Positions 1-59,240 of a DNA stretch of 64,000 bases are shown in pieces. The notes under the pieces are model-generated. The model had not been told where the DNA came from. It ran no database searches and saw only the letters and a list, made by a program, of their open reading frames with translations. The position numbers were made by a program, and so were the translations under genes. Numbering within the stretch: the stretch's first letter is position 1; every line of letters starts with the position of its first letter. This stretch comes from Sphingopyxis sp. BSN-002 (GTDB lineage: Bacteria > Pseudomonadota > Alphaproteobacteria > Sphingomonadales > Sphingomonadaceae): the NCBI RefSeq assembly GCF_022024275.1, contig NZ_CP091804.1, forward strand, positions 1,116,001 through 1,180,000. Direction: 5' to 3'.

Positions 1-1495
1 GATTGCGCGGCAGCGCGTCGATGAAGTCGATGCTCTTGGGCGCCTTGTATGCGGCGATCCGCTCGCGGGCCCAGCCAATGACGTCGGCGGCCTCGACCGT
101 CGCGCCCGCCGCGGGGACGATCAGTGCTTTCACCGCTTCTCCCCATTTATCGTCAGGGACGCCGATCACCGCAACGTCGGCGACCCCGGGACAGCCCATG
201 ATCGCGCTCTCGACCTCGGCCGGATAGACATTCTCGCCGCCCGACACGATCATGTCCTTGATCCGGTCATGAACGAAATAGAAGCCGTCAGGGTCGCGAA
301 AGCCGACGTCGCCGGTGCGGAGCCAGCCGTCCACCACCGTATCGGCGGTCGCCTCGGCGCGGTTCCAATATTCCTTCATCACAAGGTCGCCTCGGATCGC
401 GATCTCGCCGATCTCGCCATCGTCCAGCGCGCGCCCCTCGCCGTCGAGGATCGCCATCTCGGTCTGCGGCCAGGGCTTGCCGCACGACGTCAGCTTGCCC
501 GGAAGATCGTGCGCCGACGGCGACAGATAGGAACCGCCCCCCGAGCTCTCGGTCATGCCGTAAAACTGGACGAAATCGCAGCCGAAGGTCGCGCGTGCGC
601 GGCGCAGCACATCCTCGGCGATCGGCGAAGCGCCATAGGCGATCGAACGGAGCTGCGAATAATCGCCCGCTTCGGCTTCAGGTTGCTGGAGCATCATCTG
701 GATCATCGCGGGCGCGAGGAAGGCATGCGCGACCCGCTCCTCCGTCATCATCCGGATCGCGTCGCCGGCGGCGAAATCCTTGACCAGTACGAGCCGGCCG
801 CCCTGCGCAAGCCCCGAGAAGCTGACATTCGTTCCGGCAACGTGGAACAGCGGCATGACGATCATCACCGTTTCGTCCTCGCCATAAGCGAAGCCGTCGA
901 CCTCGGTCGCCATCTCGAGGAACCGGCGGTAGTTCCTGTTCGCGAGCACCACGCCCTTCGGCCGCCCCGTCGTGCCGCTGGTGTAAAGCTGCAGCACGTC
1001 GTCGGAGAGCTGCGGCTCATCCACAGGCGCAGTCGCCGACGCCCCGCCGAGCCAGGATTCCAGGCTCTCGAACGCCGGGTGCGCGCCATAAAGCGCCACC
1101 ACGTGCGGCGGCTCTGCGAGACCTTCCACCGCGGCGAGTGCGAGGTCGAAGAAATCTTCGCCGACGAACAAAAGCTTCGGCGCGGCATCGCCGAGAATGA
1201 AAGCGATCTCGCCGGCCGCAAGGCGGCAATTGACCGGCGCCAGACAGGCGCGCGCGCGCGCGGTTCCGAAGAAGAGCGGGTACCAGCCGTCATGGTTCTT
1301 GGTGAGGGCCGACACGCGATCGCCCGGAACGACGCCCGCCGCAAGGAGTGCGTTGGCGACACGGTTCGACGCCGCGTCAAGCTCGGCAAAGCTCGTCTCG
1401 CGCGCCCCGAATTTCACGGCCACCGCGCCCCCGCGTTTGCGGGCCTGCGCCGCCGGAATATCCGCCAGCGTCCGGATAGCCTCCAGATCGATCAT
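1..1495 (-). CDS. Acyl-CoA ligase, AMP-binding family (partial, C-terminal end missing)
   Basis: ATP-dependent acid:CoA ligase of the ANL superfamily, cytoplasmic. About 498 codons are visible and the reading frame runs off the left edge just after AAYKAPKSIDFIDALPRN, so only the last few residues (with the catalytic lysine of the A10 motif) are outside. The P-loop SGTTGRPKG lies near residue 170. The ATG at 1495 is preceded by GGGAGA at good spacing. It is divergent from the MetE-like gene, and a palindromic operator lies 35 bp upstream of its start, so it probably belongs to the MarR-controlled regulon. The substrate cannot be told; medium-chain or aromatic acids are both possible. It is a close paralogue of the ligase at 48999-50558. 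Confidence 0.88.
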   Translation of the reverse strand, partial: MIDLEAIRTLADIPAAQARKRGGAVAVKFGARETSFAELDAASNRVANALLAAGVVPGDRVSALTKNHDGWYPLFFGTARARACLAPVNCRLAAGEIAFILGDAAPKLLFVGEDFFDLALAAVEGLAEPPHVVALYGAHPAFESLESWLGGASATAPVDEPQLSDDVLQLYTSGTTGRPKGVVLANRNYRRFLEMATEVDGFAYGEDETVMIVMPLFHVAGTNVSFSGLAQGGRLVLVKDFAAGDAIRMMTEERVAHAFLAPAMIQMMLQQPEAEAGDYSQLRSIAYGASPIAEDVLRRARATFGCDFVQFYGMTESSGGGSYLSPSAHDLPGKLTSCGKPWPQTEMAILDGEGRALDDGEIGEIAIRGDLVMKEYWNRAEATADTVVDGWLRTGDVGFRDPDGFYFVHDRIKDMIVSGGENVYPAEVESAIMGCPGVADVAVIGVPDDKWGEAVKALIVPAAGATVEAADVIGWARERIAAYKAPKSIDFIDALPRN

Positions 1496-1529
1496 TTTGC
1501 TCTCCCAATCGTCGTTTCGACTTGAATTA

Positions 1530-1543
1530 GATAGAATACTAAG
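1530..1543. promoter_or_regulatory. Palindromic operator, copy 1 (MarR-type)
   Basis: GATAGAATACTAAG matches the consensus CTTAGTATACTAAG at 11 of 14 positions, with a perfect right half. It lies between the divergent CoA ligase (start 1495) and MetE-like gene (start 1582), near-equidistant from both, where a repressor could block both promoters. That a MarR protein binds here is inference. Confidence 0.6.
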
Positions 1544-1581
1544 CAAATGCTTGGCCAGCTAAAAATTCGAGAGGACCGGCC

Positions 1582-2634
1582 TTGTTCGACCACCCCATAT
1601 TGCCCACGACGATCGTCGGAAGCTACCCCCAGCCCGACTGGCTGATCGACCGCGAGCGACTGAAGGCCAGCCTGCCTCCCCGCGTTCGCGCCGAGACGCT
1701 GTGGCGCATTCCTGATCCCTGGCTCGCCGATGCGCAGGAGGCAGCAACGCTGATGGCGATCCGCGATCAGGAGGAACTGGGCATCGACATCGTCGGCGAT
1801 GGCGAGATGCGCCGCGAAAGCTATTCGAACCGACTTGCGACCGCACTGTCGGGGATCGATACCGAGAAGCACGGGACCGCGATCGACCGCACCGGCAACG
1901 CCAATCCGGTGCCGCTCGTTTCAGGTCCGATCCGGCGGGTGGCGCCTATAGAAGCACAGGATGCCGCCTTCCTCCGCCGCCATTCGACAAAACCGGTAAA
2001 GCTGACCCTGCCCGGCCCGTTCACGATGACGCAGCAAGCCGAGAACGGCTATTATCCCGACGCGAGATCGCTCGCGATGGACTATGCGGACGCGGTGAAT
2101 GCAGAAGTGAAAGACCTGTTCGCTGCCGGAGTCGACGTCGTCCAGCTCGACGAGCCCTATCTGCAGGCGCGTGCCGCCGAAGCGAACGCCTATGCGATCG
2201 AGGCGATCAACCGCGCGCTCGACGGTGTCGGCGGCACGACCGCGCTCCACATATGCTTCGGCTATGCGATGGTGCACCACGGTGCCGGCGCGACGGGCCC
2301 GAAGCCCAAGGCCTATGATTTCCTCGCGGAGCTCGAAGCCTCGGCGATCGACGTGATCTCGATCGAAGCGGCGCAACCGGGGCTCGATCCCGCAATCCTC
2401 GCCGAGCTGCCGACCAAGACGATCATGTACGGCGTCCTCGACCTGTCGATCCCCGAGGTGGAGACGCCCGAAGTGGTCGCCGGCCGCATCCGCGAGGCGC
2501 TGCGCTATGTCGATGCCGAGCGGCTGTGGATCGCCCCCGACTGCGGGATGAAGTACCACAGCCGCGAGCATAGCCAAGCCAAGCTGAAGGCCATGGTCGA
2601 CGGGACGGCGCTGGTGCGCGCGGAATTGAAGTAA
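1582..2634 (+). CDS. Short MetE-like zinc-dependent methyl/alkyltransferase (COG0620 family)
   Basis: This 350-residue protein corresponds only to the catalytic C-terminal barrel of cobalamin-independent methionine synthase, which is normally about 750 residues. All four zinc ligands of MetE have counterparts: His223 and Cys225 in LHICFG, Glu262 in VISIEA and Cys321 in PDCGMK. It should therefore bind and activate a thiol(ate) for alkyl transfer. The N-terminal VGSYPQP motif is also typical. The start is TTG at 1582, behind GAGAGG. Because it sits in a catabolic cluster, it may be a core-MetE methionine synthase, a demethylase passing methyl groups from the substrate, or a thiol alkyltransferase like epoxyalkane:CoM transferase. 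The sequence alone does not decide. Confidence 0.85.
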   Translation: MFDHPILPTTIVGSYPQPDWLIDRERLKASLPPRVRAETLWRIPDPWLADAQEAATLMAIRDQEELGIDIVGDGEMRRESYSNRLATALSGIDTEKHGTAIDRTGNANPVPLVSGPIRRVAPIEAQDAAFLRRHSTKPVKLTLPGPFTMTQQAENGYYPDARSLAMDYADAVNAEVKDLFAAGVDVVQLDEPYLQARAAEANAYAIEAINRALDGVGGTTALHICFGYAMVHHGAGATGPKPKAYDFLAELEASAIDVISIEAAQPGLDPAILAELPTKTIMYGVLDLSIPEVETPEVVAGRIREALRYVDAERLWIAPDCGMKYHSREHSQAKLKAMVDGTALVRAELK

Positions 2635-2636
2635 GC

Positions 2637-3329
2637 CTATGCGTCGATGAAGGCGTCCAGCAGCGGCACAACCGCTTCGGGCGCCTCGACGGTCGGCAGA
2701 TGCCCCGCCCCGGCGATCACCTCGAGCCGAGCGCCGGGGATCGCTGCCAGTATCTCCTCGTGGTGCGCACGGCTGGTGATTCCGTCCTTCTCGCCCCAGA
2801 TCAGCAAAGTCGGAACCGCGATCTCGCCGAGCCGCGGGCGGCTGTCGATCCGCGCCATGATCGCGCGCTGTTGCGCGAGGAAGGTTTCCGCCCCCGTATC
2901 GGCCGCCATCTGCCGCGCAATGCCGAGCAGGCGCGCGTCATTGCGCTTTTCTTCGGGGAACAGGATCGGGATGCGTTCCTCGACGACCTGATCGAACTGG
3001 CCGCTTTCGACAAGGTCGATATAGCCCTGCCTCCGCGCGGTCTGCGCCGGACCGTCGGCCGAAGCGAGCGTGGAAATCAGCGCCAGCTTCGCAACACGCC
3101 CCGGTGCGCGGCGCATCACCTCGAACGCGACGAAGCCGCCCATCGCATGGCCGACCAGCACGAACGTCGGAGGAGCGCTGTCGAGCAGCCGCTGCGCGAA
3201 ACCGCCGATCGTGTCATCACTCCGGTTGTCGGCGACGATTACCTCGCGGTCGCCCCATGCGTCGAGCAAGGGCCGCCACACGGCATCGGTCAAAAGCTGG
3301 CCGGTAATCAGAACAACAGGAAGCGGCAT
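2637..3329 (-). CDS. Alpha/beta hydrolase-fold protein with Ala at the nucleophile position
   Basis: A 230-residue protein of the MhpC/haloperoxidase-like alpha/beta hydrolase fold, last gene of the six-gene operon. The nucleophile elbow reads VGHAMGGF, so residue 62, normally serine in GHSMGG, is alanine. The other triad members appear intact: Asp in LLIWGEKDG and His in AGAGHLPTVE. It may be catalytically dead, or use a serine-independent mechanism (some cofactor-free dioxygenases and lyases keep this fold). The start ATG at 3329 shares its A with the TGA of the upstream dehydrogenase, so the two are translationally coupled. It converges with the MetE-like gene, 2 bp apart. Confidence 0.88.
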   Translation of the reverse strand: MPLPVVLITGQLLTDAVWRPLLDAWGDREVIVADNRSDDTIGGFAQRLLDSAPPTFVLVGHAMGGFVAFEVMRRAPGRVAKLALISTLASADGPAQTARRQGYIDLVESGQFDQVVEERIPILFPEEKRNDARLLGIARQMAADTGAETFLAQQRAIMARIDSRPRLGEIAVPTLLIWGEKDGITSRAHHEEILAAIPGARLEVIAGAGHLPTVEAPEAVVPLLDAFIDA

Positions 3330-4249
3330 CAGATCACCCGATGAAGAAGCGCTTCGCCTGCTGCGAGGCGGCGGCAATTTTCGTGCGCGACCCTGAGGCT
3401 GCGCACGAGCGTTTCCGGCGTGAGCCAGGCGATATGCGGTGCGAGCACCGCATTGGACAGGCCGAGCAACGGATTATCGCGCGACAGCGGCTCCTCGGCG
3501 AAGACGTCGAGTCCGGCGCCGCGCAGATGACCGCCGGTCAGCGCCTCGACAAGGCGGGCCTGATCTACGAGTTCGCCGCGTGCGGTGTTTACGAGCACCG
3601 CCCCTTTTTTCATCGCGAAAGGGTCGATGCTCGCGCGCGTCCCGTCGGTCAGCGGGATATGGAGCGAGACGATATCGCTTTCCGCCAGCAGGCGGTCGAG
3701 CGGCAGAAATTCATAAGGCACGTCGCGGGGACTGCGTGCGGTATAGACGACCTTCGCCCCCAGCGCCGCCAGTACCGGCGCCAATAGTTGTGCCGAATTG
3801 CCGAAACCGACGAGGCCCACGGTCCGCCCGCCGATCTCGCCGACGCTGTCGAGCTCGGACGGATCGGCGGTCCATCCCTCTCCGGCACGGGTGCGGGCAT
3901 CGAAGAAGCAGGTGCGCCGGAGCACCGCCATCATCAGCGACAGCGCCATCTCGGCGACAGCCTGGCTGTTGGTACCCGGCATGTTGCACACCGCAACGCC
4001 ATGTTCGCGTGCCGCATCGAGCGCGATGGTATTCACACCGACACCAAGCTTCTGGATCAGTTTCAGTTTCGGCGCCGACGCAATAAAATCCGGCGTCACC
4101 GGCGTCAGCACATGAAGCAGCGCGGTGATGTCGGACGCCACGGCGTCGAGCGGCGTCGCCTCGTCGACATGCACGACATTGTCCGCGCCGAAGATTGCAT
4201 CGACCGCTTCGCGAAAGCCCGGGCTTGGACGTGCGTGGAGAACGATCAT
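3329..4249 (-). CDS. D-2-hydroxyacid dehydrogenase, NAD(P)-dependent
   Basis: A 306-residue member of the D-isomer-specific 2-hydroxyacid dehydrogenase family (phosphoglycerate, glycerate and D-lactate dehydrogenases), interconverting a 2-hydroxy acid and a 2-oxo acid in the cytoplasm. The dinucleotide loop is VGLVGFGNSA at about 144-153, with the third glycine of GxGxxG replaced by alanine. The catalytic Arg224 (NTARGELVD), Glu253 (FAEEPL) and His272 (APHIAWLT) are all present with family spacing. The ATG at 4249 overlaps the enolase-like stop (ATGA), and the stop overlaps the next ATG. Context suggests it handles the oxo or hydroxy acid made around the kinase/enolase step. Confidence 0.9.
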   Translation of the reverse strand: MIVLHARPSPGFREAVDAIFGADNVVHVDEATPLDAVASDITALLHVLTPVTPDFIASAPKLKLIQKLGVGVNTIALDAAREHGVAVCNMPGTNSQAVAEMALSLMMAVLRRTCFFDARTRAGEGWTADPSELDSVGEIGGRTVGLVGFGNSAQLLAPVLAALGAKVVYTARSPRDVPYEFLPLDRLLAESDIVSLHIPLTDGTRASIDPFAMKKGAVLVNTARGELVDQARLVEALTGGHLRGAGLDVFAEEPLSRDNPLLGLSNAVLAPHIAWLTPETLVRSLRVAHENCRRLAAGEALLHRVI

Positions 4250-5544
4250 GCGGCAACCGCCCCGATCGACCCGGCGAATGCCGAGAAGCCCGCGAAGACC
4301 GCATCGGGGCCCAGCGCCTCCTCGATCCGCAGCATCTCGTTCCACTTCGCCATCCGTTCGGAGCGGGTGAAGCTGCCGACCTTCAGCTGTCCGGCATTCC
4401 AGCCGGTCGCGAGATGCGCGATGGTCACATCCTCGCTCTCGCCCGAGCGCGCCGAGACGATCGCTCCCCAACCGCGCGCTACGGCAGCGTCGAGTGCGGC
4501 CTTCGCTTCGGTGACCGTACCGATCTGGTTGACCTTGATCAGCGCCGCATTGCACACCGCGGCATCGCCCGCGCGTTCGACGCGCGCGGCGTTCGTGACG
4601 AGTACGTCGTCACCGATAATCTGGACGCTGTCGCCGATGGCGGCCGTGACCGCCGCCATCGTCGTCCAGTCGTCCTGTCCGGCCGGATCCTCGATCGACA
4701 GGATCGGATAGCGCCCGGCCCATTCGACGATGCGTCCGGCCATCTCCTCGCCCGAAAGGCGGCGATCGTCGAGCGCGAGGCTATAGCCATCGGCATCGCC
4801 CAGCTCGTTCGCCGCGATGTCGAGCGAGATAAACACCTCGTCGCCCGCACGGTGCCCGCTCGCCTCGATCGCCCGGGTCAACGTGTCGAGCGCGTCCTCG
4901 TTCGAGGAGAAGTTCGGCCACCAGCCGCCCTCGTCGGCGACCCCCGACAGCGGCCCCTTCGCCTCCATCAGCCTGCCCGCGGCGCGATAGACGTCGTCGG
5001 TGATTTCGAGCGCGCGGCGGAAACTGCCCGCCTTCGGGCACATGATCATGAAATCCTGCACGTCGGTGCGCCGCCCGGCGTGGGCACCGCCTCCGAAAAT
5101 CTGGATTTCGGGAAGCGGCACACGCACTTTTCGCCCGACGGCAAGATAGCGCCAGAGCGGCTCGCCGGCGTCGGCCGCCGCCGCGTGGAGCACCGCCATC
5201 GATACCGCCACCACGGCGTTCGCGCCGAGCCGTCCCTTGTTTGCACTATTGTCGAGCGCGCAGAGCGCCGCGTCGATCGCCGCCTGCTCGCGTGCGTCCA
5301 TGCCCTTGATCGTCGCCGCGATCTCCGACCCGATACCCGCCACGGCGCGATTGACGCCAAAGCCGCCGAACGCCTCACCCCCGTCGCGCAGATCGATCGC
5401 TTCATGTGCGCCACGCGAAGCGCCCGCGGGTGCGATAGCGCGGCCAACCACGCCCGATTCCAGCATTACCTCGGCCTCCACGGTGGGCCGGCCCCGCGAA
5501 TCCCAGAGCTGGCGGCCGGTGACGGAGGCGATACGCGAAGTCAT
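4246..5544 (-). CDS. Enolase-superfamily paralogue with altered active site
   Basis: A 432-residue full-length enolase homologue. Retained residues, in yeast enolase terms: Ser39 (here Ser43), His159 (His155), Glu211 (Glu205 in ADEGGW), the Mg ligands Asp246, Glu295 and Asp320 (Asp242, Glu285, Asp312), the base Lys345 (Lys337 in IKVNQIG) and Lys396 (Lys388). Changed residues: Glu168 is Asp164, and phosphate-side His373 is Ala365 in VSARSGES; the mobile loop SGAST reads AGASR. The machinery for proton abstraction and beta-elimination is kept while the substrate pocket differs, so it is probably not a glycolytic enolase. It is coupled by ATGA overlaps to a kinase upstream and a dehydrogenase downstream, which suggests elimination on a phosphorylated acid made by that kinase. 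Confidence 0.9.
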   Translation of the reverse strand: MTSRIASVTGRQLWDSRGRPTVEAEVMLESGVVGRAIAPAGASRGAHEAIDLRDGGEAFGGFGVNRAVAGIGSEIAATIKGMDAREQAAIDAALCALDNSANKGRLGANAVVAVSMAVLHAAAADAGEPLWRYLAVGRKVRVPLPEIQIFGGGAHAGRRTDVQDFMIMCPKAGSFRRALEITDDVYRAAGRLMEAKGPLSGVADEGGWWPNFSSNEDALDTLTRAIEASGHRAGDEVFISLDIAANELGDADGYSLALDDRRLSGEEMAGRIVEWAGRYPILSIEDPAGQDDWTTMAAVTAAIGDSVQIIGDDVLVTNAARVERAGDAAVCNAALIKVNQIGTVTEAKAALDAAVARGWGAIVSARSGESEDVTIAHLATGWNAGQLKVGSFTRSERMAKWNEMLRIEEALGPDAVFAGFSAFAGSIGAVAA

Positions 5545-6518
5545 GGATCAGTCCTTTTCCAGTTTGCGACCAGCACGTCCACCGGCTGCGGCGCAAGGAT
5601 AAGCGCGCGCGCCTGATCGCGCACGATGCGACGGTGAGCGGCATCGGTCAGATAGGGCGCCGGCGACTTTCCGTCGACGCGTGCAACGAGCAGGCCGGCG
5701 GTCAGCTTTCCCGCCCGCAGCAACAGGTCGTCGGCGACTTCCCATGAAATGCCGGCGCGATACGCCGCGACCAGTGCAGCCGCGCTCTCGACCAGCCGGA
5801 TGTCGTCCAGCCAGACCGCCTTCAGCAGCAAGTGGGTGACGCAGAAGGCGGGATCGAATGCCGGATCGCCATAGACCGCGCATTCGGCGTCGAGGAACAC
5901 CGGCGCGCCCGCGTTGACCAGAATATTCTTCGGGCTGACGTCGCCGTGAACGAGCGCGACCTTGCGCGACACAAGGTCGTCGGCGAGCGCATAGAGCGCC
6001 GGCGCTAGCTCCGTGTCCTTTTGCGCGACGTGCAGAAAGAACGGGTCGACGCGCAGTGCGCGAAACATCGCATCGTTCGGAAAAGCGTCACGGTCGTGGG
6101 CGCTATTGGCGGTGGCGGCGTGAACCTCGGCGATCGACCGGCCGACTTCCGCCGCAAAGCGGATATCGACCCTTCCGGCGGTCAGTTCGTCTTTCCACAC
6201 CGGGCAACCCGGCAGAAAGCGCATCGCGAAGGCATGCCCCGGCAGTTCGGCCAGCACTTCGGGCACGATCGCGGGGTCGACGGCGCGCGCGCGACGGAGC
6301 CAGCGCACCTCGCTCGTCCCGCGCTCGACCGGCGCGAGCCATTCGGCGGCGACCCGCAGTTGCGGTAACGGACGCTTGACCACGATCGGACCCGTGGGCG
6401 TATCGACCTTCCAGACGTCGCAGGATACCCCGCCGGTCAGCGGTTCGAGCACGACATCCTCCCTGCCCGCCAACCCGGCGGCGCGCAATTCCCGGACGAT
6501 GTCGGCCGTGGCGATCAT
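5541..6518 (-). CDS. APH/MtnK-type small-molecule kinase
   Basis: A 325-residue phosphotransferase of the aminoglycoside/choline/5-methylthioribose kinase fold. Lys48 in IVVKRPLPQ is the likely ATP-binding lysine. The catalytic loop HGDVSPKN gives Asp193 and Asn198, and FLDAEC gives the metal-binding Asp210. The segment around KRPLPQLR and the following E-rich helix resembles methylthioribose kinase more than antibiotic kinases. It starts 2 bp after the upstream hydrolase and overlaps the enolase-like gene by ATGA. Co-translation with an enolase paralogue suggests it phosphorylates a hydroxy acid or sugar-like metabolite. An antibiotic-resistance role is unlikely in this context. Confidence 0.85.
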   Translation of the reverse strand: MIATADIVRELRAAGLAGREDVVLEPLTGGVSCDVWKVDTPTGPIVVKRPLPQLRVAAEWLAPVERGTSEVRWLRRARAVDPAIVPEVLAELPGHAFAMRFLPGCPVWKDELTAGRVDIRFAAEVGRSIAEVHAATANSAHDRDAFPNDAMFRALRVDPFFLHVAQKDTELAPALYALADDLVSRKVALVHGDVSPKNILVNAGAPVFLDAECAVYGDPAFDPAFCVTHLLLKAVWLDDIRLVESAAALVAAYRAGISWEVADDLLLRAGKLTAGLLVARVDGKSPAPYLTDAAHRRIVRDQARALILAPQPVDVLVANWKRTDP

Positions 6519-6520
6519 GC

Positions 6521-7651
6521 TCAGAGCTTCTCCCTGATCCAGGCTCCGACGAGGTCAGCGGCATTCTGGCGCTCGCGGATCGAATCCTCGAAATAATGTG
6601 CGCCCTCGATCAGTTCGATCCTCTTGTCGGCCGATCCCAGGAAATCGAAAATCTTGCGCGCATCGCTCGGGAATACACCCGTGTCGGCAAGGCCCTGCAC
6701 GACGAGTGCGGGCGTGTCGTGCTTCGCCAGATGCGGCTGCCCCTGACACGGCGAGGTTTCGAGGCTCCACATGTTGAGCCAGGTCTTCAGCGTGTTGGCG
6801 CGGCCGATGCTCGGCGTGCGGTTGGCGATCTTCGGGTCGCCGCGATAGCACCAGTTGGGTTTGCGGTCCGACGGATCGATCGCCGGATCGACACAGCGGA
6901 TGTCGCCCCAGCAGCGGAACATCGGGAAAATGCGGTCCGGAATCCCCGCCGCGTTGAGACGCGCGAGCTCGGCCTTTGCCCAATCGGTGATCCGCTGGTT
7001 GCGCGCGCGCTGGCCGGCGCGATATTTTTCGATGAACGCATCTGAATAGGGCGGACCGTTGTCGGGATTGAATGGATCGAGTTCGGGATCGGTCGCAACC
7101 GGGTCATTCTCGTCGATCACCGACGCGTCCATCCAGTCGGTCAGCACTTCGGGGCGTCCCTGATGCGCGTTGAAGCTGATATAGAGATCGCCCTTGATCA
7201 GTTGCGCCAGCGCATCCTGTCCGATCGGGGGTAGCCGGTCGGTCAGGGTCGGCGCGATCGCCTCGGCCTGATAGGCGCCCATCAGCGAGCCGCCGCCCGA
7301 ATTGCCCAGAATGACGATCTGTTCGACCCCGGCCTCTTCCTTCAGCCACTTCATGCCGACGCCGATATCCAGAACTGCGTGCTCGAGCAGGAACTGGTCC
7401 TCGAACCCGCGATAGCGCGTGTTCCAGCCGAGGAAACCGAAGCCCTGCCGTGCAAAATACGGCGCGATATAATGTTCGGAGAAATCCACATTATAGTGGG
7501 TCGCGATGATGGCGACCTTCGGACGCTTGCCGCTTTCGGTCCAGTAGATCCCCTGACACGGATGTCCGCCAGCCTGGATGCGCGGCGCCGTCGGCGGCGC
7601 CCGCCCGATAAATTGCGCGTCCAGTCCCTCGATCCCGTTGGGGTCCATCAT
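6521..7651 (-). CDS. Alpha/beta hydrolase, substrate unknown
   Basis: A 376-residue serine hydrolase without signal peptide. The nucleophile elbow is ILGNSGGGS with Ser118; a late Asp (GLADTG) and His (EGAHYFE) complete a plausible triad. It is longer than simple esterases because of a roughly 150-residue cap region with a D/P-rich segment (DPELDPFNPDN) and several cysteines. The start is the tandem ATGATG at 7651, 6 bp after AGGAGAG; an upstream in-frame extension is only a shadow of the ligase gene. It is the second gene of the operon, 25 bp after the CoA ligase, and might hydrolyse an ester, lactone or thioester. Confidence 0.85.
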   Translation of the reverse strand: MMDPNGIEGLDAQFIGRAPPTAPRIQAGGHPCQGIYWTESGKRPKVAIIATHYNVDFSEHYIAPYFARQGFGFLGWNTRYRGFEDQFLLEHAVLDIGVGMKWLKEEAGVEQIVILGNSGGGSLMGAYQAEAIAPTLTDRLPPIGQDALAQLIKGDLYISFNAHQGRPEVLTDWMDASVIDENDPVATDPELDPFNPDNGPPYSDAFIEKYRAGQRARNQRITDWAKAELARLNAAGIPDRIFPMFRCWGDIRCVDPAIDPSDRKPNWCYRGDPKIANRTPSIGRANTLKTWLNMWSLETSPCQGQPHLAKHDTPALVVQGLADTGVFPSDARKIFDFLGSADKRIELIEGAHYFEDSIRERQNAADLVGAWIREKL

Positions 7652-7676
7652 CGTCTCTCCTGATTGTCGGTATGTT

Positions 7677-9311
7677 TCAGCGGGTAACTTCGAACGGCAG
7701 CCTGTACCCCTCGAGCCCCGCGCGGATCGCCTTCTTGTCGATCTTGCCGGTCGGCCCCAGCGGCACCTCCTCGACGAAAAGGACATCGTCGGGCATCCAC
7801 CATTTCGCGATCTTGCCGTCGAGATAGGCCTTCAGATCATCGGCGCAGGCCGCGGCGCCCGGTTTCAGCTGGCAGAGCAGAATCGGACGCTCATCCCATT
7901 TGGGATGTGCGATGCCGACGACGGCGGCGTTGGCCACGGCCTCGTGCCCCATCGCGATATTCTCGATCTCGATCGAACTGATCCACTCGCCGCCCGATTT
8001 GACGACGTCCTTCGCCCGGTCGGTGATCTGCATATAGCCTTCGCCGTCGATCGTGCTGACGTCGCCGGTGTCGAAGAAGCCCTCTTCGTCGAGAACATCG
8101 CCGCCCTCGCCGCCGAAATAGGCGCCCGCGATCGTCGGCCCCTTGATCATCAGTCGCCCGGGCGTCCGGCCGTCGTGGGGCAGCCGGTTGCCGGCATCGT
8201 CGACCAGCTTCATCTCGAGCCCGCAAAGCAGCCGCCCCTGCTTCAGTTTGTATGCCATCTGCTCGTCGTCGGCCTTCGCCGCGACCGAGGCGTTAGGCAC
8301 CGACACGGTTCCAAGCGGCGACGTCTCGGTCATCCCCCATCCCTGGATGACATCGACGCCATAATCGTCGCGGAAGGTCCGGATGATCGATTCCGGACAG
8401 GCCGACCCGCCGATCGTCACGCGCTCCAGCGTGGTGAAGCGCTTGCCGTTTTCCTGCATGTACTGGAGGAGCATCTGCCAGACGGTCGGCACCGCGGCCG
8501 AATAGGTCACGCCTTCCTGCTCGATCAGGTTGTAGATCGATTCGCCGTCCATCCGCTGCCCCGGCAGCACCAGCTTCGCACCGACCGCGGGCGCCGAATA
8601 GACGACACCCCACGCATTGGCGTGATACATCGGCACCACCAGCAGAACCGTATCGCGCGCCGACAGTGCCAGCGCATCGCGCTGCAGCGTCATCAGCGCG
8701 TGGATGTAGTTGGAGCGATGCGAATAAAGGACCCCCTTGGGGTTCCCCGTCGTTCCGCTGGTGTAGCAAAGCCCGCACGCGGCATTCTCGTCGAAGCCGC
8801 CCCAGACATATCCGGCGGGCTGACCCGCGATCCAGTCATCGAATGCGACGGCCTCGAAGCTCGTTTCCGGCATCGACGCGGCATCGCAAAAGAAGATCAC
8901 CTTCTCGATCGACGGCACCTGGGGCAACAACGCCTCGACCAGATCGGCGGTGGCCGGATCGGCGATCAGCAGCCGGTCTCCGGCGTGGTTCGCGATATAG
9001 GCGATCTGTTCGAGGAACAGCCGGGGGTTGAGCGTGTGGAGGACAACCCCCATCCCGGCCGCGCCGTACCACGCCGCCAGGTGCCGGGCGCTGTTCCAGC
9101 CCATCGTCGCAACCCGATCACCGCGCTTCATGCCGGCGGCGGCCAGCGCGTTCGAAACCCGCTTCGCATCGGCGTGAATGGCGGCATAGGTCGATCGGGT
9201 GACCCGCCCCTCGGCATCGCGCGAGACGATTTCGCGTTCGCCGTGCCACACAGCCGCATGGTCGATGATCCGGTCGACCGTCAGCGGCACATTCTGCATC
9301 AAACCGTCCAT
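7677..9311 (-). CDS. Acyl-CoA synthetase (AMP-forming), first gene of the kinase/enolase operon
   Basis: A complete 544-residue ANL-superfamily ligase. It shows the P-loop TSGTTGNPKG, the adenine-binding GWGMTETSPL and the C-terminal hinge ITDRAKDVVKSGGEW, with the catalytic lysine in GPTGKIDKKAIR near the end. The class is that of medium/long-chain and methylmercaptopropionate-type ligases. It is exported nowhere and should act on an acid brought in or made in the cell. The promoter region carries the palindromic operator 31 bp upstream of the ATG. The gene heads a minus-strand operon continuing to 2637, so CoA activation may be the first step of the pathway. Confidence 0.9.
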   Translation of the reverse strand: MDGLMQNVPLTVDRIIDHAAVWHGEREIVSRDAEGRVTRSTYAAIHADAKRVSNALAAAGMKRGDRVATMGWNSARHLAAWYGAAGMGVVLHTLNPRLFLEQIAYIANHAGDRLLIADPATADLVEALLPQVPSIEKVIFFCDAASMPETSFEAVAFDDWIAGQPAGYVWGGFDENAACGLCYTSGTTGNPKGVLYSHRSNYIHALMTLQRDALALSARDTVLLVVPMYHANAWGVVYSAPAVGAKLVLPGQRMDGESIYNLIEQEGVTYSAAVPTVWQMLLQYMQENGKRFTTLERVTIGGSACPESIIRTFRDDYGVDVIQGWGMTETSPLGTVSVPNASVAAKADDEQMAYKLKQGRLLCGLEMKLVDDAGNRLPHDGRTPGRLMIKGPTIAGAYFGGEGGDVLDEEGFFDTGDVSTIDGEGYMQITDRAKDVVKSGGEWISSIEIENIAMGHEAVANAAVVGIAHPKWDERPILLCQLKPGAAACADDLKAYLDGKIAKWWMPDDVLFVEEVPLGPTGKIDKKAIRAGLEGYRLPFEVTR

Positions 9312-9341
9312 GCGGCGGGCCTCTCCCTCATTCTCCAGAAA

Positions 9342-9355
9342 GATAGTATACTAAG
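9342..9355. promoter_or_regulatory. Palindromic operator, copy 2
   Basis: GATAGTATACTAAG matches the consensus at 12 of 14 positions and contains the self-complementary core TAGTATACTA. It is 31 bp upstream of the CoA ligase ATG and about 105 bp upstream of the divergent marR-type gene at 9460, so the ligase operon is the more likely target. Confidence 0.65.
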
Positions 9356-9459
9356 CATTTCGACAATGCAACGCCCCGCGCCTTGCCTCGCTCGCGCCGC
9401 TCTTATAGCGTGCCTGTGTCGGCGATCTGCCGGCAAACAGGGGCTATCGTCGGCGTAAC

Positions 9460-9894
9460 ATGCGCACCAATCAACTCATCATCGCGCTTTTCCAGCGCTT
9501 CTGCTGGCTCGACGAGGGCTTGCAGGCGCGGCTCCATGACCGCGGCTGGCCCGATGTAAGTCGTCCGCAATCGATGGTGATGACCAATATCGTCAGCGGC
9601 ATCGTTCGCCCTTCGGACATCGCGCGCAACCTTGGCGTGTCGCGTCAGGCAATCCACAGCACGATCAACCAGATGGTCGGGCTCGGCATGATCAAGCTCG
9701 CACCCGACCCCGACGACCGGCGGCACATGATCGTGTCGTTGACCGAAACGGGCGCGCGGATGCGGCAGGATGCCCAGCGCGCGATGGATGCACTGTCCGA
9801 CCAGCTCGCCGAGCGGCTGGGTCACGACCGCTTCGATGCACTGCTCGCAACGCTCGAAGCCGACTGGGGCGACAATATCGAGCGCAAGCCCTAG
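9460..9894 (+). CDS. MarR-family transcriptional regulator (first)
   Basis: A 144-residue winged-helix regulator. The recognition region IARNLGVSRQAIHSTINQMV is followed by a wing with DPDDRRHMIVSLT, the MarR hallmark. It is divergent from the CoA-ligase operon and its 3' end overlaps the FMN reductase tail by 4 bp. It is one of two candidates for binding the cluster palindromes. The N-terminal region is short and the ligand is unknown. Confidence 0.87.
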   Translation: MRTNQLIIALFQRFCWLDEGLQARLHDRGWPDVSRPQSMVMTNIVSGIVRPSDIARNLGVSRQAIHSTINQMVGLGMIKLAPDPDDRRHMIVSLTETGARMRQDAQRAMDALSDQLAERLGHDRFDALLATLEADWGDNIERKP

Positions 9895-10466
9895 GTTGCA
9901 AGCGCCCGGGCGACGGTGACGAGTCGGCTCGCCGTCATGTCGACCAACGAGGCCGGCAGCGCATCCTTCAGCTTTCCGGTTTCGTCGAAAGCCGCATGCG
10001 CATTCGGAATCAGGACCTGTTCGGGGATCACGATCGTCTGAATGGTCGAGAGAATCTGACGAAGGTGCATCAGACCGCGAAGGCCGCCGAACGGGCTGAT
10101 CGATGCCGACATGACTGCACTCGCCTTGCCGCGATAGGCGCTGAGCGCAACGAGCGATTCCTCGCCGGTGGGACGCGACGCCCAGTCGATCGCGTTCTTG
10201 AGCAGGGGCGAAACGGAGCCATTATATTCGGGCGAGACGAACAGCAGCCCGTCCTGCGCCGCAAACAGCGTCTTCAGCCGTCCTGCGTCGGCCGGAAAAT
10301 TGTCGGCTTCAAGGGCGGCCGAATAGAGCGGCAGATCGAAGCCCGCGAGGTCGACGTCGGTAACGACGGCACCCTGCGCTTCAAGCGCCTCGATCGCCAG
10401 TTTCCCCAGCGCGCGATTGAACGACCCCTCACGCACGCTCCCGACGACGACGGCAATCCTGATCAA
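9891..10466 (-). CDS. NADPH-dependent FMN reductase / quinone reductase family protein
   Basis: A 191-residue flavodoxin-like protein. The FMN phosphate loop GSVREGSFNRAL is at the N-terminus and SPEYNGSVSP at about residues 78-87 is the second family signature. It should reduce flavin or quinones with NAD(P)H in the cytoplasm. The start is TTG at 10466, preceded by GGGGAGGG. A palindromic operator sits 22 bp upstream. It could supply reduced flavin to an oxygenase outside the window or protect against quinones; no flavin monooxygenase is visible here. Confidence 0.88.
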   Translation of the reverse strand: MIRIAVVVGSVREGSFNRALGKLAIEALEAQGAVVTDVDLAGFDLPLYSAALEADNFPADAGRLKTLFAAQDGLLFVSPEYNGSVSPLLKNAIDWASRPTGEESLVALSAYRGKASAVMSASISPFGGLRGLMHLRQILSTIQTIVIPEQVLIPNAHAAFDETGKLKDALPASLVDMTASRLVTVARALAT

Positions 10467-10487: not shown

Positions 10488-10501
10488 GTTAGAATACTAA
10501 C
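10488..10501. promoter_or_regulatory. Palindromic operator, copy 3
   Basis: GTTAGAATACTAAC is a palindrome with one mismatched pair and shares the TTAG/CTAA arms of the other copies. It is 22 bp upstream of the FMN reductase start, where it would overlap the promoter or leader. It also lies just beyond the 3' end of the second marR-type gene. Confidence 0.65.
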
Positions 10502-10533: not shown

Positions 10534-11040
10534 TCAGGCCTTGATATCCGACAGCGTCGACAGCTTGGCGGTCTCGTCGGCAAGATTGTCGATCACGCGC
10601 CGCATCAGCTTCTGCAGCGTCTCGACCTCCGCATCGGTCATTCCGCGTGTCGCGACCTCATGAACCTCGGCGTTCATCGGGGCGAGGACCAGCTCGAGCT
10701 TTTTCGCATGCGGCGTCAGATAGATGAAGGTCTTGCGGCGATCGTCCTCGGTCTTCTTGCGTGTGATGAACCCCGCCTTTTCAAGGCCCTTCAGCGCCAC
10801 GACGGTCGTCGGCTCGCGCATCCCGACCCGCTCGCTGAGTTCGCGCTGGGTGATCCCGTCCTCGCGCCACAATTGACGGAGAAAGCGCCATTGCCCCGCC
10901 GAGACGTCGTGCGTCAGCGTTCCGCGTTCGAGCAGCCGCGAAAAGGAACGGAAAACGATACGCGCGAGATAGCCGATGCTGTTTTCCGGGTTCGTGTAAT
11001 ATTCCGCCGGATGCCGGAAGCCCTCGTTCTTCTTTGCCAA
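10534..11040 (-). CDS. MarR-family transcriptional regulator (second)
   Basis: A 168-residue winged-helix protein. The helix-turn-helix spans QRELSERVGMREPTTVVALK and the wing contains KKTEDDRRKTFIYLT. The long N-terminal helix (YTNPENSIGYLARIVFRSF) would form the dimer interface, as in regulators of aromatic catabolism. The start is TTG at 11040 after AAAGGGG. It is divergent from the LeuD-type gene, with the best operator copy between them, which favours this protein as the regulator of the cluster and of itself (inference). Confidence 0.88.
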   Translation of the reverse strand: MAKKNEGFRHPAEYYTNPENSIGYLARIVFRSFSRLLERGTLTHDVSAGQWRFLRQLWREDGITQRELSERVGMREPTTVVALKGLEKAGFITRKKTEDDRRKTFIYLTPHAKKLELVLAPMNAEVHEVATRGMTDAEVETLQKLMRRVIDNLADETAKLSTLSDIKA

Positions 11041-11137: not shown

Positions 11138-11153
11138 ACTTAGTATACTAAGT
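11138..11153. promoter_or_regulatory. Palindromic operator, copy 4 (perfect 16-bp palindrome)
   Basis: ACTTAGTATACTAAGT is a perfect 16-bp inverted repeat and the best of the five related sites. It lies between the divergent second marR-type gene and the LeuD-type gene, ending 15 bp before the proposed CTG start and just upstream of AAAGGAG. Bound protein would block the LeuD-type gene directly. Confidence 0.75.
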
Positions 11154-11168: not shown

Positions 11169-11750
11169 CTGGAAAAATTCGCCCGCCTGACCGCAGTCGC
11201 CGCGCCGCTGGCGCTCGCCAATGTAGACACCGACATGGTCATACCGGCCCGCTTCATGAAAGCCCTGACGCGCGCGGGACTCGGACGGCATCTGTTTCAG
11301 GAACTCCGCTATGACGCCGCTGGCGGCGAGCGCCCCGATTTCATCCTGAATCGCGGCGCTTGCCGCCAGGCACAGATATTGATCGCGGATCGCAATTTCG
11401 GGTGCGGGTCGTCGCGCGAGCACGCCGTCTGGGCGCTCGCCGATTTCGGGATCCGATGCATCGTCGCGCCGAGTTTCGGCGACATATTCTCGGGTAATGC
11501 GCGCAAGAACGGCCTGCTCCTGATCCGCCTTCCCGACGCGCTGTGCGAACAGCTTCGCAACGAGGTGGAGCTCGCGCAATTCGCGCCGGTCACTATCGAT
11601 CTGGTCGATCAGCGGATCACGCTGGCGTCAGCCGAGGAGATTATGTTCGAAGTCGACCCCGACGACCGGCGGACGCTGCTGGAGGGTCTCGACGACATAG
11701 CGCGGACGATGCGGCACGAGACCGCAATCGCACGCTTCGAAAGGGCCTAG
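11169..11750 (+). CDS. Isopropylmalate dehydratase-type small subunit (LeuD-like)
   Basis: The small swivelling subunit of an aconitase-superfamily hydro-lyase, 193 residues, normal for LeuD. The conserved N-terminal motif ([20 protein letters not shown]) starts right after codon 11169, which is CTG; no ATG, GTG or TTG exists between it and the in-frame TAA at 11154. AAAGGAG ends 7 nt before it. The first ATG, at 11235, would delete the conserved NVDTD segment. [14 protein letters not shown] is the substrate-binding signature. The partner LeuC-type gene is convergent on the other strand and overlaps by 4 bp. In this cluster, a catabolic C4-C7 hydroxy-diacid dehydratase is more likely than leucine synthesis. 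Confidence 0.85.
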
Positions 11751-13165
11751 CCGAGGCTGGCGGGATCGGCGATGCATCCCGCGATCGCGCTTGCCGCGGC
11801 AAGGGCCGGGCTCATCAGATGGGTCCGTCCTCCCCGTCCCTGCCGGTTTTCGAAATTGCGGTTCGAGGTCGCGGCACACCGCTCGCCCGGTTGCAGACGA
11901 TCCGCATTCATCCCGACGCACATCGAACATCCGGGCTCGCGCCAGTCGAAGCCCGCCGATTGCAGGACCCGATCGAGCCCCTCCGCTTCCGCCTGCCTTT
12001 TGACGAGGCCCGAACCGGGCACCACCATCGCCCTGACGTGCGGTGCGACGCGGCGCCCCCGGGCGATATCCGCGACGACACGCAGATCCTCGATGCGGCT
12101 GTTCGTACAGCTTCCGATAAAGACGCGATCGAGCCGCGTGCCCGCGATCGGCGTCCCCGGCATCAGGTCCATATAGGCGAGGGCGCGTTCGGCAGCGGCA
12201 CGTTCCTCGGCGTCCGGAAATGTTGCGGGATCGGGAATCGGAGTATCGACGGCGATAACCTGTGACGGGTTCGTGCCCCAGCTTACCATCGGTCGCACGG
12301 CGGCGGCGTCAACGCGGACTTCGCGATCGAACAGCGCGCCCGCATCGGTCGGGAGGCCGCTCCAGCGCGTCAGCGCCGCAGCCAGCGCCGCGCCCGCGGG
12401 CACCGCCGGACGCCCCTCCAGATAGGAGAATGTCGTGTCGTCGGGGCCGATCAGTCCCGCGCGCGCGCCCATTTCGATGCTGAGGTTGCACAGCGTCATC
12501 CGCCCTTCCATCGACAGCTTCCGCACAGCCGGCCCCGCATATTCGATGACATGTCCCGTCGCGCCATCGACCCCGATCACCGCCAGCAGATGGAGCGCCA
12601 GATCCTTGGCATGGACGTGCGCGGCCAACCGCCCCTCAACGTGGATGCGCATGTTGCGCGATTTGCGCTGCCGGATCGTCTGGGTCGCCAGCACATGCTC
12701 GACCTCGGAGGTTCCGATCCCGAAGGCCAGCGCGCCGAACGCGCCATGGGTCGAGGTATGGCTGTCGCCGCAAACGATCGTCATCCCAGGCTGCGAACGC
12801 CCCTGCTCGGGCCCGACGACATGCACGATCCCGCCCCGTGGATCGCCCAGCGGGAAATTCTCGATCCCGAACCGGCGCGTGTTGTCGACAAGCGCCTCGA
12901 GCTGCGCCCGTGCCTCCGGATCGGACACACCCGCAGTTCCCGCCGCCTGCCCGGCGGTCGGCACATTATGGTCGGAAAGGGCCAGCGCCAGTTCGGGCCG
13001 GCGGACCGGCCGTCCTGCCGCGACCAGTCCGGCGAACGCCTGCGGCGAGGTGACTTCATGCAACAGATGCAGATCGATATAGAGGATCGTCTCGCCATCG
13101 TCGTCCGCAACGGCATGCGCATCCCATATCTTGTCATAGAGTGTGCGCGGAAAGGGCCGTGTCAT
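11747..13165 (-). CDS. Isopropylmalate dehydratase-type large subunit (LeuC-like)
   Basis: The 472-residue Fe-S subunit of an aconitase-family hydro-lyase. The three cluster cysteines are visible: one in [12 protein letters not shown] and two in [34 protein letters not shown] and the C-terminal [17 protein letters not shown] are family signatures. It should form a heterodimer with the LeuD-like protein at 11169-11750, yet the genes face each other tail to tail, each with its own upstream operator copy. True leuCD are normally in one operon beside leuB, which is absent here. The exact hydroxy-diacid substrate (for example a methylated malate) is unknown. Confidence 0.9.
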
Positions 13166-14176: not shown

Positions 14177-15088
14177 ATGAATCCCGTCTGGCTCCCTGCC
14201 TCGCTGCTCGGCGGCCTTTTCCAGGCATGGCGCACCGCGCTTCAGCAGCGCCTGCGGTCTGAACTCAGCGTCAGCGGCGCGGGCTTGGTACGCTATCTCT
14301 ACGGGCTTCCCTTCGCATTCGCTTTCGCGGTCCTGTGGCTCGGGATTCCCGGCACCCCGGTTCCGGCAGCGACAACGCAATTCCTCGGCTTTTCGGCCGC
14401 AGGCGCCATCACGCAGATGGCGGGGACTATCCTGCTGATCATGGCTTTCGGCCATCGAGGCTTCGTCGTCGGCACGGCGTTCTCGAAAACCGAGGCGATC
14501 CAGGCCGCGCTGGTAACCGCGCTGTTTCTCGACGAGCATCTTCCCCTGCTCGCGTGGGCCGGCATCGTCGTCGGCGTCGCGGGCGTGCTGATACTGGCGC
14601 TCGCGGGACAGGGCATTACCGCCCGCCAGATCGGACAAGCCCTGCGCCAGCCCGCCGCGCTATGCGGCCTTGGCGCGGGTTCGATGTTCGCCTGCGCCGC
14701 GATCGCGATCAAGCTTGCGACCGCAGAACTGAAGGGGGTCGATACGATCGGATCCGCGCTGGTCACGCTCGTTGTGGTGATGGCGATCCAAAGCGTCCTG
14801 CACCTCGCGTGGATCGTGGCCCGCGATCGCGAAACCCTGCGCGGCGTCTGGCGATCGTGGCGGACGTCGGGTCAGGTCGGACTGCTCTCGGCCCTTGGCT
14901 CGGCCTGCTGGTACACCGGATTTGCGGCGGCACCCGCCGCGCTCGTACGCATCGTCGGGCAGGTCGAGGTGATCTTCACGATCGCCTTCGCGCATTTCTA
15001 TCTGCGCGATACCGTACGCTGGCACGAGGTTCTGGGCCTGCTGCTCGTCGCCGCCGGCGTCATTCTGGCCCTCATCGCTGCCGCATGA
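14177..15088 (+). CDS. EamA/DMT-family transporter
   Basis: A 303-residue inner-membrane protein with about ten hydrophobic segments in two homologous halves, typical of drug/metabolite transporters. The start ATG has GGAGG 11 nt upstream. It follows the hydratase gene on the same strand, with no operator copy between, so the two may be co-transcribed. It could import the pathway substrate or export an intermediate. The family covers too many solutes to name one. It converges with the beta-glucosidase gene. Confidence 0.85.
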   Translation: MNPVWLPASLLGGLFQAWRTALQQRLRSELSVSGAGLVRYLYGLPFAFAFAVLWLGIPGTPVPAATTQFLGFSAAGAITQMAGTILLIMAFGHRGFVVGTAFSKTEAIQAALVTALFLDEHLPLLAWAGIVVGVAGVLILALAGQGITARQIGQALRQPAALCGLGAGSMFACAAIAIKLATAELKGVDTIGSALVTLVVVMAIQSVLHLAWIVARDRETLRGVWRSWRTSGQVGLLSALGSACWYTGFAAAPAALVRIVGQVEVIFTIAFAHFYLRDTVRWHEVLGLLLVAAGVILALIAAA

Positions 15089-58909: not shown

Positions 58910-58979
58910 GTCGTCAGTCTCCCGCGGTTGACATGGCGAACGCGCGGCCGTGCGCCGCGGTTTCCGCCATGCCCCCTCT

Positions 58980-59180
58980 GTCACGGGAACCTGAGAGTTT
59001 TCCCCCGTCGGCCGAATATCGGCGCCGGGGTTACCCCTTCGGTGGTTCCGGCAAATGGCCGGAACGCTTTCCAGAGTGTCCGTTCCAGCCGCGCGGTCCA
59101 GGTACCTGAGAGTTTCCGGGGCGGTTGCTCCTTCGGTGGCGGATCAGGTTGCCCTGCCCCGCGCTCTCCCGCGCGTCCGG
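58980..59180 (-). promoter_or_regulatory. Tandem glycine riboswitch (two aptamers)
   Basis: On the minus strand the leader of gcvT carries two copies of the glycine aptamer core: CCACCGAAGGAGCAA then AACTCTCAGGTACC (about 59100-59175), and CCACCGAAGGGGTAA then AACTCTCAGGTTCC (about 58984-59081). The tandem arrangement is classical and switches gcv expression on with glycine. The 331-bp stretch 58910-59240 holds no gene; the riboswitch fills most of it and its promoter should lie at about 59180-59240. Confidence 0.95.
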
Positions 59181-59240
59181 TCGAATCTCCCTGTGGAGGT
59201 CCGACAGACGCCCGAGCCTTGGCGCTGCGCCTTTGCGGAG

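Follow-up and report, generated by a model that had tools for sequence, protein, structure and literature searches.

The closest described systems to the locus analyzed here are the glycolytic enolase (phosphopyruvate hydratase, TIGR01060, EC 4.2.1.11) and a few metabolic routes. The locus lies in a stretch of 64,000 nucleotides of Sphingopyxis sp. BSN-002 (the window, positions 1,116,001–1,180,000 of a one-contig genome of 3.73 Mb) and encodes a variant enolase next to a small-molecule kinase of the APH family. The variant shares both domains of the housekeeping enzyme, together with its metal ligands, lysine base, general acid and phosphate-binding residues. It differs by the replacement of Glu168 with Asp and of His373 with Ala or Gly (yeast numbering) in 86 of 86 homologues, by its position on a separate branch and by its linkage to the kinase. 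In E. coli, GarL-GarR-GarK is a route to 2-phosphoglycerate. The likeness is that an aldolase or a dehydrogenase feeds a glycerate kinase and the route ends in glycolysis; however, the kinase here belongs to the APH family instead of glycerate kinase classes I and II (GK-I and GK-II), and a dedicated variant enolase follows it. The serine cycle segment of hydroxypyruvate reductase, glycerate kinase, enolase and phosphoenolpyruvate (PEP) carboxylase is matched here by a D-2-hydroxyacid dehydrogenase, a kinase and an enolase, and in rhizobia also by a PEP carboxylase, but the kinase is of another family and the enolase is a variant. LvaA and ACAD10/11 are likewise APH-type kinases of acid catabolism with CoA ligases; their partner is an acyl-CoA dehydrogenase, whereas here it is an enolase. 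L-Rhamnose is also served by a 2,4-diketo-3-deoxy acid hydrolase route. In the routes of this type for D-arabinose and L-fucose, the hydrolase releases glycolate or lactate (PMC6336799). The sugar-type loci described below share FAH and SDR partners with these routes; a kinase–enolase pair is not among the parts described for D-arabinose and L-fucose in the portion of that source used here. Nor was a kinase paired with an enolase paralogue described in the titles and abstract openings among the literature matches listed.

We suggest that the kinase and the variant enolase may form a dedicated two-step module that converts a glycerate-like acid to PEP, and we put the probability of this reading at roughly 0.45. 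L-glycerate is our first guess for the acid, and a lactate altered at C3 is the second. From the gene order, co-conservation, residue changes and a shared operator-like site, all of them observed, we infer the chemistry, the substrate and the regulator. The kinase would phosphorylate the 2-hydroxyl of a small 2-hydroxy acid, glycerate-like but not D-glycerate. The variant enolase would then eliminate the C3 group with the help of two metal ions and the lysine base that it has kept, to give PEP. Two CoA ligases, hydrolases and a MetE-like protein of the same cluster would break down a larger carboxylic acid under a MarR regulator. A preliminary description of this stretch had already proposed phosphorylation followed by elimination, and this is still the natural reading; its unspecified oxo-acid product gives way to PEP, to which the neighbors of the pair in other organisms point. 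The dehydrogenase, which had been placed after the enolase, more likely acts before the kinase and probably forms the hydroxy acid from a 2-oxo acid.

A variant enolase beside an APH-type kinase

The window genome also has a normal enolase, which is 44% identical to the window enolase, and a second, normal enolase was found in 20/20 variant-bearing genomes tested. The variant is therefore not the sole candidate for the glycolytic enolase of these cells. We compared 106 distinct rows of an alignment, 86 variants and 20 normal enolases split by residue 365. It turned out that the two groups differ sharply at 11 positions. At position 164 (yeast Glu168), Asp occurs in 86/86 variants and Glu in 20/20 normal enolases. 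At position 365 (yeast His373) the variants have Ala (85) or Gly (1) against His in 20/20, although this column is circular as evidence since the rows were grouped by it; column 164 and the tree topology are independent. At position 203, Ala (84) or Cys (2) stands against Gly in 20/20. We thinned the 106 rows to 81 for a maximum-likelihood tree, in which one branch with 100/100 support separated 61 variants from the 20 normal enolases. The columns of yeast S39, H159, D246, E295, D320, K345, R374, S375 and K396 are invariant in 106/106 rows, and the E211 column is kept in all rows except one distant sequence (L077), which has Lys. Thus, the base, metal and phosphate residues are kept, and the changes in the variant would fall at the leaving-group site, since we take Glu168 and His373 to serve the 3-hydroxyl of the substrate in yeast enolase. 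According to the part of the source used here, Lys345 is the base of enolase and Glu211 the acid, and Glu165, which we read as the equivalent of yeast Glu168, contacts 2-phosphoglycerate (PMC4450660).

The window enolase scored above the TIGR01060 cut-off (459.6 bits against 300). The Glu168 and His373 that mark the housekeeping enolase were found in none of the 86 homologues. Judged by these active-site residues, the protein is probably not an ordinary 2-phosphoglycerate enolase, in line with the preliminary description, which had called it a paralogue. Structure prediction was poor for both partners, with a mean pLDDT of 56.8 for the kinase and 67.1 for the enolase. In the kinase, the HGDxSPKN motif is present in 69/69 loci with a homologue. 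APH PF01636 is the sole Pfam match of the window kinase, which falls outside the glycerate kinase class I and II families (PF02595, PF13660). We rejected its identification as S-methyl-5-thioribose kinase MtnK (TIGR01767, 50.7 bits, cut-off 275).

The kinase was searched for in 298 genomes of the family (E ≤ 1e-10), in a phylum sample of 398 genomes (E ≤ 1e-20) and in 274 genomes of a second class (E ≤ 1e-25), where it was found in 15, 9 and 4 genomes, respectively. A search seeded with the enolase in 337 genomes of the class (E ≤ 1e-134) gave the variant in 23. The kinase–variant enolase pair is a minority trait. The variant enolase adjoins the kinase in 28/28 loci found with the window kinase as the query (mostly Sphingopyxis, one Novosphingobium and a few other sphingomonads). 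In the family search it adjoined the kinase in 11/15 genomes, one of which (G150) was judged from a short locus (L040). The phylum sample gave an adjacent variant enolase in 6/8 other genomes, with the remaining two at a distance of up to 8 kb, and the second class gave it in 3/3 new genomes. In the opposite direction, the kinase was present in 22/22 other genomes found through the variant enolase: adjacent in 18, at 1.7 kb in one and on another contig in three, in one of which the enolase is located at a contig end. Among 91 loci surveyed, 87 held a kinase match over 60% of the kinase length. The variant enolase lies within 200 bp on the same strand in 73 of these, an enolase-like gene is farther away or on the opposite strand in 12 (one being the very distant L077), and two have none; because the species of the kinase loci and the genome searches may overlap, and L108–L126 and L130–L131 were picked by the enolase, such adjacency counts are not independent samples. 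The relatives of the two genes are thus found together repeatedly, as a conserved pair, which the preliminary description had left to a survey of genomes.

The start and stop codons of the kinase and variant enolase genes overlap in most loci, including those of Rhodococcus, Haladaptatus and Persicobacter. This overlap, together with the kinase in all 22 other genomes that yielded the enolase, makes it improbable that the main role of the kinase is to detoxify or tag some compound, as in other APH kinases, while the enolase acts on another intermediate of the same pathway. Such a role would suit the membership in the APH family and two loci, L049 and L052, which have the kinase and a MarR gene and no variant enolase.

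In these two loci (kinase near 9.4–10.5 kb), the MarR2-like gene is the sole other homologue of the window cluster that we saw, and the genome has no variant enolase. By eye, the kinase of L049 is set among housekeeping-looking genes. This suggests a remnant or a different use of the kinase. The enolase-like gene of L077, from an Enterobacter chuandaensis plasmid (7259–9984), is very diverged and encodes Lys in place of the general acid. It is oriented divergently from a homologue of the kinase gene and adjoins U32 peptidase, aminotransferase and MFS genes; its branch in the tree is very long and its placement unsure. The L077 genes may be related to the pair but serve a biosynthetic purpose.

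The acid that may enter the proposed route

In four Rhizobium plasmids, a PEP carboxylase gene adjoins the dehydrogenase and kinase genes; in one Pararhizobium, a LacI gene lies between them. We aligned one such PEP carboxylase to that of E. coli, and the motifs that presumably form the PEP site are intact. In L128, the pair has a tartrate dehydrogenase gene (546 bits, cut-off 470) as a direct neighbor. In the haloarchaeon Haladaptatus (L078), a GarL-like aldolase gene is divergent from the pair (234 bits, under the cut-off of 407), and dehydratase-like genes are also present. In a Bacteroidota plasmid of Persicobacter, an aldehyde dehydrogenase gene immediately precedes the kinase and enolase genes, and the three form one run. 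The kinase and enolase genes of Paracoccus, Roseibium and Sinorhizobium are followed by genes for an FAH protein and SDRs (sugar-type loci), and the FAH protein of Paracoccus is related to 2,4-didehydro-3-deoxy-L-rhamnonate hydrolase (352 bits, cut-off 500). Loci of Rhizobium, Cupriavidus, Paraburkholderia and Sphingobium contain an extradiol-dioxygenase-like VOC protein, a cupin and a Zn alcohol dehydrogenase. The common thread of these neighbors suggests that glycerate or a close relative goes in and PEP comes out; the aromatic-type loci fit this least. In another genome of the family (L055, 2.2–10.2 kb), we saw dehydrogenase–enolase–kinase genes beside NahE-like aldolase, aldehyde dehydrogenase and RraA-like genes, all named by eye.

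D-glycerate as the substrate would make the pair redundant in the window genome, where genes for a GK-II family protein and for a normal enolase are both present. The same two genes rule out the pair as the sole glycerate kinase and enolase of this genome. A plain D-glycerate route, with an APH-type D-glycerate 2-kinase and a diverged ordinary 2-phosphoglycerate enolase kept for local flux and regulation, is unlikely in our estimate. It would have to accommodate two active-site residues altered in every variant homologue, the normal enolase in 20/20 genomes, and GK-II in 9 of the 20 kinase-bearing genomes tested (the window genome included, and the one GK-I genome, G1020, among these nine). 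The enolase score above the TIGR01060 cut-off, the GarL-like aldolase of L078 and the tartrate dehydrogenase of L128 speak for this route. So does the dehydrogenase partner, which is closest to glycerate dehydrogenase: its nearest solved chain is 2cuk, a glycerate dehydrogenase/glyoxylate reductase, and its best NCBIfam score is 176 bits against a cut-off of 455.

Several observations weigh against the proposed module itself. Both GK-II and GK-I were unmatched in 11/20 kinase-bearing genomes, including G122 and G293 of the same genus, in a search of these two kinase classes; therefore, the kinase could be the D-glycerate kinase there, and the redundancy argument fails. Three related genomes (G085, G242 and G277, the last being 83% complete) and the distant G048 encode the kinase alongside only a normal enolase, so the pairing is not absolute; both findings also favor the plain D-glycerate route. 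The tartrate dehydrogenase and the D-specific family of the dehydrogenase argue for D-glycerate, which the normal enolase could finish. The kept lysine base suggests that the stereochemistry at C2 is unchanged, which speaks against L-glycerate. Finally, it is not obvious how glycerate would arise through the ring-cleavage-like genes that rhizobia and Cupriavidus carry near the pair.

For the module leading from a glycerate-like acid to PEP, L-glycerate would fit the L-sugar type of the FAH and SDR partners, but would suit neither a dehydrogenase of a D-specific family nor the lysine base, which is kept. A lactate altered at C3 would fit the changed leaving-group pocket, but no context suits all loci. 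In another reading, the C3 leaving group is not hydroxide: the kinase would phosphorylate either a C3-branched dihydroxy acid or a lactate substituted at position 3 (sulfonate, thioether or aryl ether), and the variant enolase would expel the group to yield PEP or one of its analogues. Taken as an explanation of its own, this appears quite unlikely: no one C3 substituent suits all contexts, and the Paracoccus plasmid locus behind the sulfolactate idea already has UxaA-family genes, presumably SuyAB-like, and a neighboring set that we take to be hps-like. These genes weaken the sulfolactate route (phosphosulfolactate to PEP and sulfite) that the same plasmid had raised. The altered residues, which we take to serve the 3-hydroxyl, next to a kept base and phosphate site are consistent with such a leaving group. 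Further points in its favor are the isomerase of Persicobacter, for which sulfoquinovose isomerase was the sole NCBIfam match at E ≤ 1e-20 (159 bits, cut-off 700), the TauD or PhyH dioxygenase genes a few kb from the pair in L109, L110 and L134, and the GST-family genes close to the window cluster, of which one was identified by Pfam and the others by eye.

A second enolase specificity may span Proteobacteria, Actinomycetota, Bacteroidota and haloarchaea. We propose tentatively that, together with the APH-type kinase, it turns L-glycerate or a lactate with a C3 leaving group into PEP through a phospho-acid that known enolase does not use. In public records the variant genes carry the name of the glycolytic enolase, and a separate catabolic activity may hide under this textbook name. 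If the proposal is true, PEP can be reached by a second way that has a kinase to itself, and nature offers a test of the enolase residues that determine the substrate. The presence of the pair would then also mark undescribed pathways for sugar acids and aromatic acids in bacteria of soil and sea.

The conserved cluster and its operator-like site

The six minus-strand genes from ligase B to the second hydrolase are packed as the preliminary description had reported, with gaps of 25 and 2 bp followed by overlaps of 4, 4 and 1 bp (Table 1). The 1-bp overlap between the dehydrogenase and second hydrolase genes is TGATG. Pfam agreed with the gene calls in five of the six genes (AMP-binding, APH, Enolase_N with Enolase_C, 2-Hacid_dh and Abhydrolase); the first hydrolase gave two weak hydrolase matches only, both under the cut-off (Pfam/NCBIfam). 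The six-gene order is kept in 26 of the 28 loci. The exceptions are L016, a short contig beginning at the kinase gene, and L026, without a ligase B match. However, boundaries drawn at six genes proved too narrow, as ligase A, the MetE-like gene, the FMN reductase gene, two MarR genes and an aconitase-type pair share the conserved cluster. The full order in most of the 28 loci is aconitase pair, MarR2, FMN reductase, MarR1, ligase B, hydrolase 1, kinase, enolase, dehydrogenase, hydrolase 2, MetE-like, ligase A. It is cut by short contigs, and in a few loci single genes gave no match, for instance FMN reductase and MetE-like in L024 and ligase B and MetE-like in L026.

Table 1. Genes and operator-like sites of the cluster, in window positions.
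Feature	Position	Strand	Remarks
Acyl-CoA ligase A	1–1495	-	PF00501/PF13193; gene extends ~70 bp beyond window start; in most loci; operator-like site upstream
Operator-like site TGCTTAGTATTCTATCT	1529–1545	-	between ligase A and MetE-like genes
MetE-like cobalamin-independent methyltransferase domain	1582–2634	+	PF01717
Second alpha/beta hydrolase (abH2)	2637–3329	-	Pfam Abhydrolase; PcaD-like fold, Ala at nucleophile position
D-2-hydroxyacid dehydrogenase (HADH)	3329–4249	-	Pfam 2-Hacid_dh
Variant enolase (enolase paralogue)	4246–5544	-	Pfam Enolase_N + Enolase_C; D164, A365
APH/MtnK-like small-molecule kinase	5541–6518	-	Pfam APH PF01636
First alpha/beta hydrolase-like protein (abH1)	6521–7651	-	GNSGGG nucleophile motif; no family over cut-off
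Acyl-CoA ligase B, PRK06018 subfamily	7677–9311	-	AMP-binding; 855.6 bits, cut-off 766
Operator-like site TGCTTAGTATACTATCT	9341–9357	-	upstream of ligase B
MarR-family regulator 1 (MarR1)	9460–9894	+	Pfam
NADPH-dependent FMN reductase family protein	9891–10466	-	Pfam
Palindromic operator-like site, 3 mismatches	10488–10501	+	upstream of FMN reductase gene
MarR-family regulator 2 (MarR2)	10534–11040	-	
Perfect palindrome CTTAGTATACTAAG	11139–11152	+	between MarR2 and aconitase_C genes
Aconitase C-terminal (LeuD-like) subunit	11235–11750	+	
Aconitase (LeuC-like) large subunit	11747–13165	-	

Palindromes similar to CTTAGTATACTAAG lie at window positions 1530, 9342, 10488 and 11139; four were found against 0.04 expected. 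In the 28 loci we counted 99 operator-like sites, and 9 in one base-shuffled control. Most of the 99 are located up to 260 bp upstream of the ligase B, ligase A, MetE-like, MarR2, LeuD-like or FMN reductase genes, a site between divergent genes being counted once for each gene; five are upstream of no gene checked. With up to two mismatches, the asymmetric form of the site occurs three times in the whole genome, twice at cluster promoters and once inside an open reading frame (14177–15088). The palindromic promoter site is rare elsewhere in the genome. A reversed pattern used as a control gave 0 matches in the window genome, 1 in G122 and 2 in G293; because it also matches in the latter two, their few operator matches are partly at chance level. 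Perhaps MarR2 is the regulator that binds the operator-like site.

The preliminary description had noted that the second hydrolase lacks a nucleophile. We found Ala at this position in 40/40 loci with a homologue, window copies included, and perhaps the protein carries out a non-hydrolytic or altered reaction. Its identification as the 3-oxoadipate enol-lactonase PcaD was rejected, as it has no catalytic Ser and scored 87.6 bits against a cut-off of 255.85. The first hydrolase keeps the GNSGGG motif in 34/35 loci. A PDCG motif is found in the MetE-like protein in 31/31 loci with a homologue, and we take the motifs of this protein to be a zinc site. Wherever present in the 28 loci, this one-domain protein is 93–99% identical, which is unusually conserved for a gene of a catabolic cluster. 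The PADLOC library gave no match for the four proteins tried.

Beyond ligase A there are TonB receptor, GST, SMP-30, CMD and VOC-family genes. This suggests a hydrophobic organic acid as the substrate. The two aconitase-type genes face each other, with an overlap of a few bases at their ends, rather than forming one operon; the convergence is kept in most of the 28 relatives. Elsewhere in the window, tandem glycine riboswitch aptamers are located on the minus strand at 58968–59181, with two matches to Rfam RF00504 of 48.6 and 60 bits.

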